Origin: Saprospiraceae bacterium
GTDB taxonomy: Bacteria; Bacteroidota; Bacteroidia; Chitinophagales; Saprospiraceae
Assembly: GCA_020629965.1 (NCBI GenBank)
Contig: JAHDCG010000023.1
Location: 1-57,354, forward strand
Reading direction: 5' to 3'
Length of the DNA: 57,354 nucleotides
The notes under the pieces are model-generated. The model made no database searches and was not told where the DNA came from. It saw nothing but the letters and a program-made list of their open reading frames with translations. The position numbers were made by a program, and so were the translations under genes. Positions 51,486 to 55,092 of the stretch are shown in pieces. The first letter of the stretch is position 1; every line of letters begins with the position of its first letter.

Positions 51486-53435
51486 TCAATTCATCACCAT
51501 ACTCAACAGCCCCATAATTTTCGCATACAATTCGTGCGGTTTGAATGGCTTGGGCAGGTAGTCATTCATGCCCGCTTCAAAGCAGTTATCTTGTTCTTGT
51601 TTGGTAGAATTGGCGGTCAGGGCGATAATCGGCACGTCGCTGAACTCTCTGATTTTGCGCGCCGAGTCGAGACCGTTCATGACGGGCATTTGCAAGTCCA
51701 TCAGAATTAAATCGTAACCGTGCTCGCGGAATTTTTCTACGCCGACCAGCCCGTTTTCGGCAATATCGACCGTCACCAAGTCCGACCAGGTCGTGAGGAC
51801 TTTTTTGGTGGCGATTTGGTTCAAAAAGTGGTCTTCGACCAGCAAAATACGCAGCGGAATTTCGGGCGTATCGGAGGTACTGAGGCGGGTCATACGCGCC
51901 GATTTTACGGGCAAAACGACCTCGAAACTGCTGCCCTTGCCGACCTTACTTTCGACCTGTAACTCACCGCCGAGAGTCTTTGCCAATTTGACGACAATCG
52001 CCAAACCCAGCGGACGTTCGTCCTTTTTTTGCTCTTCTTCCGAGTAAACTTCCAACAGTTTATCCGCGTCGGGTATTTCTTTCAGCATTTTTTCGCCGAT
52101 GCCTTTGCCCGTGTCTTTGACGTAAAGGTGCAGGTTAAATTTATCGTTGCGAATGTTTTGCGCGCGCGCCGCTATTGTCACCGTGCCGCCCTCTTCGGTG
52201 TAGCGGATGGCGTTGTCCATCAGGTTGTATAGAATTTGGGTGACCTTACGTTGGTCGCAGATTATTTTTTCGGGCAGGTTGTCGTCGGCTTGCAGTTCAA
52301 GTTTCAGCTTGGCATTATCCGCTTTGATTTTTGCGGAACGCTGCATACTTTGCAAGAAGTCGCGGAGGTGAAACTCTTCGGCTTCGGCTTTGACATTATC
52401 GGAAACCAAAACACTGAAATTCAACAGATTAGTAATCGCAATCGACAGGTCATCGACCGAGGTTTTGAGGTTGCCGATGTAGTCTTTTTGCGCGGGATTG
52501 ATGCGGGTATTTTCGAGCAAATACATCAAATTCACAATCGAAGACAGCGGCGTACGGATGTTGAAACTCATTTCGCGCAGGGCTTCTTCTTTGATTTTGG
52601 CGGTGCGCGATTGCATGTTTTTTTCGATAATCAATCGCTCCGTCACTTTGCGCTCCGTGATGTCCTGCATGGCACCGATGAGCAGCAGCCTCTGCGTCAG
52701 CTCGTCGTAGTTGACTTTGGCCTGCACGCTGAGGTATTTCAGGTTGCTGCCTTCGAGAATGATGCGGTGTTCGATGGTGTGCAGTTTGCCGTCTTTCGCG
52801 GCGTCTTCAAAGAAATTTTCAACCTTTTCGCGGTCTTCGAGGTGCACGTAAGACATGTAGTCCGACATGCCGGGGTTCATGCTGCCGGGCTGAAAATTAA
52901 AAATGCGAAACACCTCGTTGGTCCACTTCATTTCGTTGGTCACGATGTCCATTTCCCAGTTGCCGAACTGTGCCATTTCCTGCGCCTCGACGTAGCGTTT
53001 TTCGTTGACGGCGAGGCGGTGCGCCGCGTCTTCGAGTTTTTGCTGCTCTTTAAATCTTTGCAGGGCATAACGCACCGCACGCCCGAGTAATTTACCGTCG
53101 AATTGTCCTTTTACCAAAAAATCCTGCGCACCCGCTTTTACGGCTTGATTACCGATAATTTCGTTGTTCATGCCCGTCATGACGATGACCGGTATATCGC
53201 TCGATTTTTCTAAATATTTCGTTAAAGTCTTAAAGCCGTTGCTGTCGGGCAATGACAAGTCTAACAGAGTCAGGTCGATGTCACGCGCGGCGAGAATTTC
53301 GTCGGCGGCGTAAAGCGACTCGGCGTGGTGCATTTCTACTTTCATCGCGGCATCTTGCAGGAAAATGTTGATGAGTTCGACGTCTCCCGGATTGTCTTCG
53401 ATGAGCAGAATATGCGTTTTGTGCTTGGTATTCAT
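51486..53435 (-). CDS. Hybrid response regulator-PAS-kinase-receiver, H-box histidine missing
   Basis: A 649-residue cytoplasmic protein. Receiver domain 1 (about residues 8-125) has the phospho-Asp in LTLLDLSLP. A PAS domain (about 155-265) ends in the usual ITERKV. The kinase-like region follows (about 275-510), then receiver domain 2 (about 530-645, ILMDLQMP, KPF). The H-box reads MSFNIRTPLSS where MSHE(I/L)RTPL is expected: Phe291 and Asn292 replace the phospho-accepting His and its acidic partner. The ATP lid region is also odd (RPLGLAIVVKL rather than GTGLGLAI), although LMDNAIRYT and VKDTGKGIG are kept. It is probably not a normal autokinase; it may act as an ATP-binding scaffold. It forms an operon with the response regulator 60 nt upstream. 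Confidence 0.93.
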   Translation of the reverse strand: MNTKHKTHILLIEDNPGDVELINIFLQDAAMKVEMHHAESLYAADEILAARDIDLTLLDLSLPDSNGFKTLTKYLEKSSDIPVIVMTGMNNEIIGNQAVKAGAQDFLVKGQFDGKLLGRAVRYALQRFKEQQKLEDAAHRLAVNEKRYVEAQEMAQFGNWEMDIVTNEMKWTNEVFRIFNFQPGSMNPGMSDYMSYVHLEDREKVENFFEDAAKDGKLHTIEHRIILEGSNLKYLSVQAKVNYDELTQRLLLIGAMQDITERKVTERLIIEKNMQSRTAKIKEEALREMSFNIRTPLSSIVNLMYLLENTRINPAQKDYIGNLKTSVDDLSIAITNLLNFSVLVSDNVKAEAEEFHLRDFLQSMQRSAKIKADNAKLKLELQADDNLPEKIICDQRKVTQILYNLMDNAIRYTEEGGTVTIAARAQNIRNDKFNLHLYVKDTGKGIGEKMLKEIPDADKLLEVYSEEEQKKDERPLGLAIVVKLAKTLGGELQVESKVGKGSSFEVVLPVKSARMTRLSTSDTPEIPLRILLVEDHFLNQIATKKVLTTWSDLVTVDIAENGLVGVEKFREHGYDLILMDLQMPVMNGLDSARKIREFSDVPIIALTANSTKQEQDNCFEAGMNDYLPKPFKPHELYAKIMGLLSMVMN

Positions 53436-53495: not shown

Positions 53496-53942
53496 CTATC
53501 TCATTCTGCCGGGCAAAATGGCGGTCGTCAACCAAAAATCTTCAATCATTTGAATGATGTCGAAAAAGCGGTCGAAGTCCACGGGTTTGTTGATGTAGCA
53601 GTTGACGTGCAAATCGTAGGTTTTCAAAATATCCTGCTCGGCGTTGGAAGTCGTCAAAACGATGACCGGAATGCGCTTTAAGGCGGGTTCTTCTTTAATT
53701 TCGGCGAGCACTTCGCGTCCGTCTTTTTTCGGCAGATTCAAGTCCAAAAGAATCAAGTCGGGCTTTACGGCATCTTGGTAAGGCGGTCTTTTGTGCAAAA
53801 AATGCAGTGCCTCCACACCGTCCATGACGACATCGAGGCGATACTCCAATTTTCCTTCTTTAAATGCTTCCTGCGTCAATCTGACATCACCGGGATTGTC
53901 CTCGATGAGTAATAAATTGACCGGTCTTGACTTGTGCGACAT
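53496..53942 (-). CDS. Single-domain response regulator (Rcp1-like)
   Basis: A 148-residue stand-alone receiver. It starts NLLLIEDNPGDVRLTQEAF, the acidic pocket of Rcp1-type regulators, with the phospho-Asp in LILLDLNLPKKDG, the signalling Thr in VLTTSNAEQD and the Lys in NKPVDF. There is no output domain, so it passes phosphate by protein contact. It precedes the hybrid kinase by 60 nt, in the same direction. The frame extends 87 nt further upstream but overlaps the divergent polyprenyl synthase promoter region; the ATG at 53942 fits the family start. Confidence 0.92.
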   Translation of the reverse strand: MSHKSRPVNLLLIEDNPGDVRLTQEAFKEGKLEYRLDVVMDGVEALHFLHKRPPYQDAVKPDLILLDLNLPKKDGREVLAEIKEEPALKRIPVIVLTTSNAEQDILKTYDLHVNCYINKPVDFDRFFDIIQMIEDFWLTTAILPGRMR

Positions 53943-54105: not shown

Positions 54106-55092
54106 ATGCAAACTCTAAGCCAATTCCAAGATTTATTCTACAAGTATCTCGCGGAAAATCAATTCGACTACTCTCCGAAAGAATTGTACGAACCCGTGCG
54201 CTACATTATGAATCTCGGCGGCAAGAGAATGCGCCCGCTGTTGGCACTTATGGCACACGCGGTTTTTGACGACGACATCGAAAAATCCATGCCCGCCGCT
54301 TTCGCCGTCGAAGTGTTTCACAACTTCACCCTCGTGCACGACGACATCATGGACGTGGCTCCGCTGCGACGCGGCAAACCGACCATTCACGAGCATTTTT
54401 CGCAAAATCATGCGATACTTTGCGGTGACGTGATGATGATTTACGCCTATCATTACCTCAACCAAACCGCCGATAAATCCTTGGTCGGCGAGTTATTTAC
54501 CCTTTTCAACAAAACGGCCATCGAGGTCTGCGAAGGACAGCAAAACGACATGAACTTCGAAACCCGCGACAACGTGAGCATCGAGGAATATTTGAAAATG
54601 ATTGAGTATAAAACCGCCGTCCTGTTGGGTTGTGCCCTACAGATGGGCGCAAGAGTCGGCGGCGGCAGCAAAGAAGATGCCCGGCATCTGTACGAGTTCG
54701 GGCGCAATGTCGGCTTAGCGTTTCAAATGCAGGACGACCTCTTGGATACCTACGGCGACCCCGAAAAATTCGGTAAAAAAGTCGGCGGCGACATCGTGCA
54801 AAACAAAAAAACCTACCTCGTGCTGCGCGCCATGCAATCCGACGACGAAAAAAGCAAAAAAGAGCTGAAAGATTGGCTGAAAATCGTGACCGTCACGCCG
54901 ACGGCGGAGGAAGAAAAGATTGAAAAAGTGCGCGAAATTTTCGACCGCTTGGAGGTAAAAGCGGCAGCGGAAGAATTGAAAAACAGCTACCAAAAGACGG
55001 CGTTTGAACACTTAGCGGCGGTCGATGCGCCGGAGGAAAGAAAGGCGGTATTGCGCGCTACGGCGGAGAGTTTGTTGGTGAGGGAGGTGTGA
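54106..55092 (+). CDS. Trans-isoprenyl diphosphate synthase
   Basis: A 328-residue polyprenyl synthetase that extends allylic diphosphates with IPP, providing precursors for quinones or lipid carriers. The first Asp-rich motif is VHDDIMDVAPLRRGKPT, the second FQMQDDLLDTYGD, and the conserved GGKRMRP lies near residue 40. Residues before the first motif (HNFTLV) do not by themselves fix the chain length; medium to long chains are possible. The start is the ATG downstream of the -7 element; the longer frame reading back over the response regulator is a shadow. It is convergent with the doubtful small gene below. Confidence 0.94.
   Translation: MQTLSQFQDLFYKYLAENQFDYSPKELYEPVRYIMNLGGKRMRPLLALMAHAVFDDDIEKSMPAAFAVEVFHNFTLVHDDIMDVAPLRRGKPTIHEHFSQNHAILCGDVMMIYAYHYLNQTADKSLVGELFTLFNKTAIEVCEGQQNDMNFETRDNVSIEEYLKMIEYKTAVLLGCALQMGARVGGGSKEDARHLYEFGRNVGLAFQMQDDLLDTYGDPEKFGKKVGGDIVQNKKTYLVLRAMQSDDEKSKKELKDWLKIVTVTPTAEEEKIEKVREIFDRLEVKAAAEELKNSYQKTAFEHLAAVDAPEERKAVLRATAESLLVREV

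Follow-up and report, generated by a model that had tools for sequence, protein, structure and literature searches.

Family-wide loss of the phospho-accepting histidine in a hybrid pseudo-histidine kinase of the Saprospiraceae

What is a histidine kinase fold kept for once the histidine that should accept the phosphate is gone? The question is raised by a 649-residue hybrid protein encoded by a Saprospiraceae bacterium (GenBank assembly GCA_020629965.1, contig JAHDCG010000023.1), of which the whole 57,354-nucleotide stretch analysed here is called the window. An initial annotation of this DNA held that the phospho-accepting histidine is missing from the protein's H-box, and the reading is correct at the level of the codons: on the minus strand, residues 291 and 292 are encoded by TTC AAC, within EMSFNIRTPLSS, and translate as Phe-Asn. 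The features discussed below are collected in Table 1.

Table 1. Positions in the window of the hybrid protein, its parts and the neighbouring genes
Feature	Position	Strand	Basis
HAMP-HisKA-HATPase_c kinase, 1260 residues	166-3948	-	Pfam
Pseudo-histidine-kinase hybrid, 649 aa, REC1-PAS-DHp-CA-REC2	51486-53435	-	ORF, Pfam, AlphaFold model
REC2, residues 528-645, with Asp580 and Lys629	51501-51854	-	Pfam
CA (HATPase_c) domain, residues 353-512; evolves fastest of the group's domains	51900-52379	-	
G2 box ERPLGLA, altered	51999-52019	-	
G1 box DTGKGIG, residues 441-447; intact here, degenerate in most relatives	52095-52115	-	
DHp helices (model helices 260-308 and 314-344); HisKA match below the Pfam cut-off	52401-52658	-	
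Altered H-box MSFNIRTPLSS, residues 289-299	52539-52571	-	
Phe291-Asn292, replacing HisKA His-Glu/Asp	52560-52565	-	
PAS domain, residues 145-262 (PAS_3 match 169-255)	52650-53003	-	Pfam, model
REC1, residues 1-125, phospho-Asp at Asp59	53061-53435	-	Pfam
Single-domain response regulator, 148 aa, 60 bp upstream of the hybrid	53496-53942	-	ORF, Pfam
Polyprenyl synthetase (PF00348), divergent from the signalling genes	54106-55092	+	Pfam

In its domains the protein is built like a hybrid kinase. Above threshold, Pfam finds two Response_reg stretches, in agreement with the two receivers claimed for it at the outset, together with PAS_3 and HATPase_c (74.2 bits); HisKA reaches 22.0 bits, below its gathering cut-off of 26.9. 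The N and G1 boxes are intact, and the G2 box is altered as first described, reading ERPLGLA where active relatives have, for example, GTGLGLS. The initial annotation took much of the ATP site to be kept; in most of the protein's relatives the site is degenerate. Pfam gave no HPt match within the 649 residues, and the C-terminus is formed by REC2, whose last helix runs in the model up to residue 647. An AlphaFold model from a 23-row alignment (mean pLDDT 82.5, pTM 0.41) keeps a kinase-like fold and gives the domain order REC1, a long helix, PAS, the DHp helices, CA and REC2, with a poorly defined CA lid (residues 464-472 score under 50). From these scores we take the domains to fold as they do in a hybrid kinase and their relative placement to be unreliable. 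The best 50 Foldseek matches of the model in the PDB include many histidine kinases, plant phytochromes and DivL (4q20, rank 40), LvrB (8vc9) is also among the PDB matches, and in sequence the hybrid matches DivL 4q20 at 1.6e-15. With a kinase fold and the conserved loss of a catalytic residue, the protein is a putative pseudo-histidine kinase, predicted to show no autokinase activity in vitro.

The loss is neither a sequencing error nor a recent mutation: the protein of a genus mate, 83% identical, has the same Phe-Asn, and histidine is absent from the other members of the group as well. Of the matches listed by a search of 398 genomes of the family, the 137 with scores of at least 457 bits were all retrieved, and none of them has His at residue 291. 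From the weaker family matches, listed at 427-452 bits, one that reads Phe-Asp (L223) was included, and those in G181, G243, G266, G274 and G307 were left out, together with every match beyond the listing. Adding L223 and two syntenic relatives that are still more degenerate, L267 and L268, gives a pseudo group of 140 sequences, one per genome and counting that of the window. Residue 291 is aromatic in 132 of these, Phe in 128 and Tyr in four; the eight non-aromatic cases are Ser in three and Lys, Pro, Glu, Arg and Leu in one each, so that Phe291 itself is absent from 12. The initial annotation had singled out close homologues all carrying His as the decisive comparison, and none of the close homologues carries it. 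Its companion suggestion, that the Phe-Asn pair might be conserved, holds for Phe291 and fails for position 292, which varies.

The 140 rows were divided from 23 His-bearing ones by residue 291 itself, which makes the absence of His from the 140 true by definition. We therefore rely on evidence independent of that split, namely the score rank (137 of 137 without His), the synteny with the synthetase gene (105 of 105 loci without His) and a tree that ignores the H-box. This FastTree tree was built with the H-box and Asp59 columns omitted, from 169 rows: the 140 non-His proteins, the 23 His-bearing hybrids and six REC-PAS-only proteins, which have no DHp and are not counted in the 140. A single branch with local support of 100 divides the 140, along with the six REC-PAS-only rows, from the 23 His-bearing hybrids, which include 14 from the same family with intact N, G1 and G2 boxes as well as hybrids from the order's other families. 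Identity between the two groups is about 33%. Outside the family, in overlapping samples of 298 genomes from the order and 395 from the phylum that include family members, the four strongest matches (538.9, 533.1, 442.1 and 394.0 bits; L265, L050, L270 and L266) all carry His, and a distant non-His relative could still lie among the weaker matches. The simplest history would have His lost once, at the root of the group, by an active kinase with a regulator of this type already in its neighbourhood; near two His-bearing hybrids of other families lies a response regulator that shares 63% identity with that of the window, adjoining the hybrid in L272 and two genes away in L265.

For comparison, a motif scan of loci L002-L030 of the window genome, with the acceptor site restricted to His, Phe, Tyr, Asn or Gln, gave seven distinct coding-strand H-boxes, all with His; it also failed to pick up the H-boxes of several further kinases and produced two spurious opposite-strand matches. 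The published baseline for HisKA domains without His is 0.9% (722 of 76,471; PMC12632262). Since the HisKA of the window protein falls below the Pfam cut-off, counts of pseudo-kinases that depend on such a cut-off can miss proteins of this kind.

The acid that follows the histidine has gone with it. Position 292 (H+1) is Glu or Asp in 23 of 23 His-bearing rows and in three of the 140, the others having His (62), Asn (31), Gln (29) or some other residue (15). Work on CrdS, HK853 and two more HisKA proteins describes H+1 as needed for kinase and not phosphatase activity and H+4 as the reverse, and the acid at H+1 as required for kinase activity in the HisKA proteins tested (PMC3510030). In our group the H+4 residue, Thr or Asn in HisKA proteins and here Thr295, is kept in 132 of 140, as are Arg294 in 129 and Pro296 in 131. 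The Mg-binding Asn408 is kept in 41 of the 140 and the G1 Asp441 in 56. Within the N-box, residue 404 (window about 52224-52226, minus strand), its first Asn, survives in 128 sequences and Asn408 in 41, whereas nucleotide binding on its own would predict the opposite. The initial annotation had also entertained an ATP-dependent switch. Both Asn408 and Asp441 are present in the window protein, but their loss from most of the 140 led us to reject such a switch as a property of the group, and as a family property it appears unlikely. The second receiver, for its part, remains phosphorylatable: Asp580 is present in 138 of 139 sequences, and so is Lys629. In L213 Asp580 is replaced by Asn.

Constraint is distributed unevenly along the protein. 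Mean pairwise identity in the pseudo group (3000 random pairs of 9730 possible) is 47% for REC1, 45% for PAS, 44% for DHp, 23% for CA and 58% for REC2, and in the active set (all 253 pairs) it is 43, 25, 52, 45 and 46%, respectively. The CA domain, at 23% against 45%, thus stands out as released; from the PAS figures we conclude nothing, as the active set is more diverse. Across 16 independent close pairs, all from the pseudo group since the active relatives include no close pairs, dN/dS is lowest for DHp (0.033) and REC2 (0.035), followed by PAS (0.051), REC1 (0.063) and CA (0.093), and it falls to 0.015 for residues 286-300. The same pairs show a mean of 22.5 amino-acid changes per 15-residue segment and only two in residues 286-300, where the count of seven non-synonymous steps most likely reflects serine codon-box switches. 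Two changes or fewer occur in 18 of 635 overlapping segments, with starts at 282-289, 326, 328-331 and 529-533, so that change is slowest in the part of DHp helix 1 that surrounds Phe291, in DHp helix 2, and in the acidic pocket of REC2 with the start of its first helix. These are the faces that meet in known kinase:regulator complexes such as HK853-RR468. The chief argument for docking is that they remain the most constrained parts although the acceptor and, in most members, a good deal of the nucleotide site have been lost. Active kinases likewise conserve the H-box and REC, and the pattern alone is therefore no proof of docking without catalysis. What it does indicate is that the altered H-box is strongly preserved by selection and is not decaying.

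One gene beside the hybrid encodes a candidate partner. The single-domain response regulator that had been noted just upstream recurs in the group, on the same strand and adjacent in 87 of 126 loci, with 51-85% identity to the window's copy (the window aside). The 126 are those of 138 pseudo-group loci with at least 1300 bases upstream, L267 and L268 not included, and a regulator was counted if it was shorter than 231 residues and scored at least 70 bits. The divergent polyprenyl synthetase is present in 105 of the 126, both neighbours in 68 and neither in two. When 17 His-bearing loci were scored alike, three of them with fewer than 1300 bases upstream, there was no synthetase and one regulator, at 41% identity. 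The synthetase probably lies outside the signalling unit. Searched genome-wide at 1e-30, 34 of 40 genomes (the 39 without an adjacent copy, plus G096) had no match to the regulator; as a control, the search recovered it in all 10 genomes tried in which it adjoins the hybrid (52-100% identity). The six remaining genomes, all of genus g85, have a match elsewhere at 47-49%, which could be a moved copy, since even the regulator beside the hybrid in G116 reaches only 52% identity. With 39 of 126 loci lacking an adjacent regulator, and most of these genomes giving no match at 1e-30, the regulator cannot be the sole partner of the hybrid.

The phospho-accepting Asp59 of REC1 has been lost in several lineages: the 135 scored relatives have Asp in 111, Glu in 16, Asn in seven and Ser in one. 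Because our start rule took the first ATG, several N-termini were shortened, and L150 (REC1 Asp intact) and L204 (Glu) fall outside the 135; L208 has a stop upstream, and the frames of L215 and L218 run off contig ends. The change to Glu, a possible phospho-mimic, is seen in L145, L147, L149, L151, L154 and L161, all of genus g85, and also in L049, L202, L204, L205-L207, L214, L216, L140, L179 and L180. Among 127 rows, those with fewer than 800 bases upstream or no residue 59 having been omitted, Asp59 is lost and the regulator absent in 20, lost and present in three, kept and absent in 20, and kept and present in 84. Counting independent pairs across branches with support leaves only six, with a median sign-test p of 0.5, too few events for the association to be more than suggestive.

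At some related loci the protein has neither a kinase core nor a second receiver: these parts are missing, not silenced. In family f14 of the same order, a regulator 59-64% identical to the window's sits beside a REC-PAS-only protein of 304-326 residues (L261, L263, L264 and L274), and in family f21 one of 49% identity adjoins a REC-PAS-only protein (L273); L262 has a REC-PAS protein with no regulator beside it. Within the window's own family, L260 (genome G096) encodes a REC-PAS-only protein of about 330 residues beside the synthetase, in a genome with no regulator match at 1e-30. In the tree the REC-PAS-only rows fall within the pseudo group, a placement to be taken with caution, as these sequences are short and sit on long branches, where joins are unreliable.

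What, then, might this protein do? The initial annotation suggested signalling without classical autophosphorylation, and given the loss of both His and the H+1 acid this is the likeliest reading, although it remains a prediction. More specifically, we propose, at about an even chance, that the hybrid is a catalytically dead, DivL-like hub for docking receivers. Input would arrive through REC1 and the PAS domain. The four-helix bundle of the DHp would make no phosphohistidine but would keep its receiver-docking face, with Phe291 at the phosphate's place, and would dock a phosphorylatable receiver, most likely the protein's own REC2 and, where present, the adjacent response regulator. Phosphate would reach REC2, REC1 and the regulator in trans, from another kinase or from a small phosphodonor, and docking would read, hold or clear the phosphate, the resulting state being passed on via REC2. 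A kinase elsewhere on the contig, about 48 kb away (Table 1), had been named as a possible phosphate source. It has an intact His in its H-box, AHEIKNP, and its HAMP, HisKA and HATPase_c domains lie at the C-terminal end, the large N-terminal part having no convincing Pfam match; nothing we found links it to the hybrid, and the suggestion is unsupported. In a stronger form of the docking proposal, which we think somewhat unlikely, the kinase core has been turned round into a reader of receivers: the Phe-bearing DHp would dock its own REC2 and the regulator, receiver phosphorylation would be the input, and a phosphatase activity might be kept. Were this so, the protein would be a receiver-reader hybrid in which phosphate enters from outside and is never made inside.

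The alternative with the most support is that the hybrid is a sensor that only dephosphorylates, its kinase half switched off, with Thr295 helping to remove phosphate from REC2 or the regulator under the control of REC1 and PAS. Thr295 survives across the group while exactly the two kinase-specific residues, H and H+1, have been lost; ranked by entropy, no DHp position is more conserved, and Thr295 is kept in three relatives that have lost the aromatic residue (L051, L203 and L215). The published survey of pseudo-kinases points in both directions, describing His as not essential to HisKA phosphatase activity yet as contributing to the reaction, and arguing against such activity as a general function of pseudo-kinases (PMC12632262); in DivL, by the published account, it is absent (PMC4211667). 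We do not prefer this explanation, and hold it to be unlikely, because Arg294 and Pro296 are kept about as well as Thr295, so that the block may be structural, and because losses of Thr295 show no trend with absence of the regulator (four of six scored losses retain it). A decaying kinase core, serving as a spent linker on its way to being lost, could account for the low identity of CA, for the still greater degeneration of L267 and L268 and for L260, which retains only REC-PAS at the same site. It sits poorly with the strongest constraint falling on DHp and REC2, both in dN/dS and in segment counts, and with a His loss at the base of the group after which the aromatic residue has been kept in nearly all members, and we find it improbable.

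Two further alternatives deserve mention. The dead DHp and CA might pair with an active paralogue, either tuning it or borrowing its kinase activity for REC2. Candidate partners exist: several of the same genomes hold REC-PAS-HK-REC relatives with intact SHEMRTP, N, G1 and G2 (L065-L072), and the window genome has an 802-residue relative with SHEMRTP on contig C204. The groups are nevertheless only about 33% identical, and the conserved DHp residues specific to the pseudo group (Phe291, Asn302, Asp329 and Asn339) rather favour self-pairing, which leaves this pairing improbable in our judgment, even with the precedent of the ChrS pseudokinase, reported to heterodimerise with HrrS (PMC9491836). 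Alternatively, residue 292 or another residue nearby might take the phosphate in place of 291. Besides the many relatives with His292, His288 occurs in five (L049, L202, L204, L214 and L218) and His290 in the very divergent L267. A one-residue shift along a helix, however, rotates the side chain by about 100 degrees, position 292 is elsewhere Asn, Gln or another residue and is Asn in the window protein, and the nucleotide site of CA is degenerate in most relatives. As an acceptor for the whole group His292 can be rejected, being present in only 62 of 140, and the chance of any displaced acceptor appears very slight.

The docking hub that we favour has its closest parallel in DivL of Caulobacter, a PAS-linked DHp-CA protein with an aromatic residue at the His site that works with the response regulator DivK. 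In the study of that protein, Tyr550 occupies the His site, the docking face of the DHp binds phosphorylated DivK, the Y550F variant retains this specific binding, and neither kinase nor phosphatase activity is reported as seen (PMC4211667). DivL is described there as consisting of PAS domains and a DHp-CA with its other kinase boxes kept (PMC4211667), whereas the hybrid has receivers at both ends and Phe in place of Tyr, and most of its relatives have lost the G1 Asp and the Mg-binding Asn. DivL is recognised by the absence of receivers and by Tyr or Ala at the His site; the hybrid has two receivers and Phe. We find no evidence of common descent between the two beyond the shared kinase fold. 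RcsD also contains a pseudo-kinase domain, which is described as part of a phosphorelay (PMC3762810), but RcsD has an HPt with a phospho-His of its own and the hybrid ends with REC2, with no HPt found by Pfam. In LvrB and the Rec-controlled histidine kinases a receiver likewise controls a kinase-like core; the published description of LvrB is that of a histidine kinase and its mechanism of activation (PMC13269768), whereas the hybrid has no acceptor. ChrS, too, is reported to be inactive and yet to signal, with a heterodimer demonstrated (PMC9491836), but it arose from a frameshift in CA during laboratory evolution, while the hybrid represents a natural, lineage-wide family.

Pseudo-histidine kinases as such are already recognised, as DivL, the RcsD domain (PMC3762810), ChrS (PMC9491836) and the survey of HisKA domains (PMC12632262) illustrate, and form a small group that has been framed only recently. 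Our search of open-licence PubMed Central found no literature on a Saprospiraceae family of non-His hybrids, and the hybrid is apparently an undescribed variant that extends family-wide across the Saprospiraceae. What sets it apart from the named pseudo-kinases is a receiver at either end, a Phe that is nearly fixed, and an ATP site lost by degrees across the lineage. With 140 members, a His-bearing sister set and that graded loss, it provides a natural test set, to which evolution has added the loss of the partner regulator, that of the REC1 phospho-Asp and, at a single site, that of the entire kinase core. The family thus makes directly testable what a kinase fold is kept for after kinase activity has been lost.
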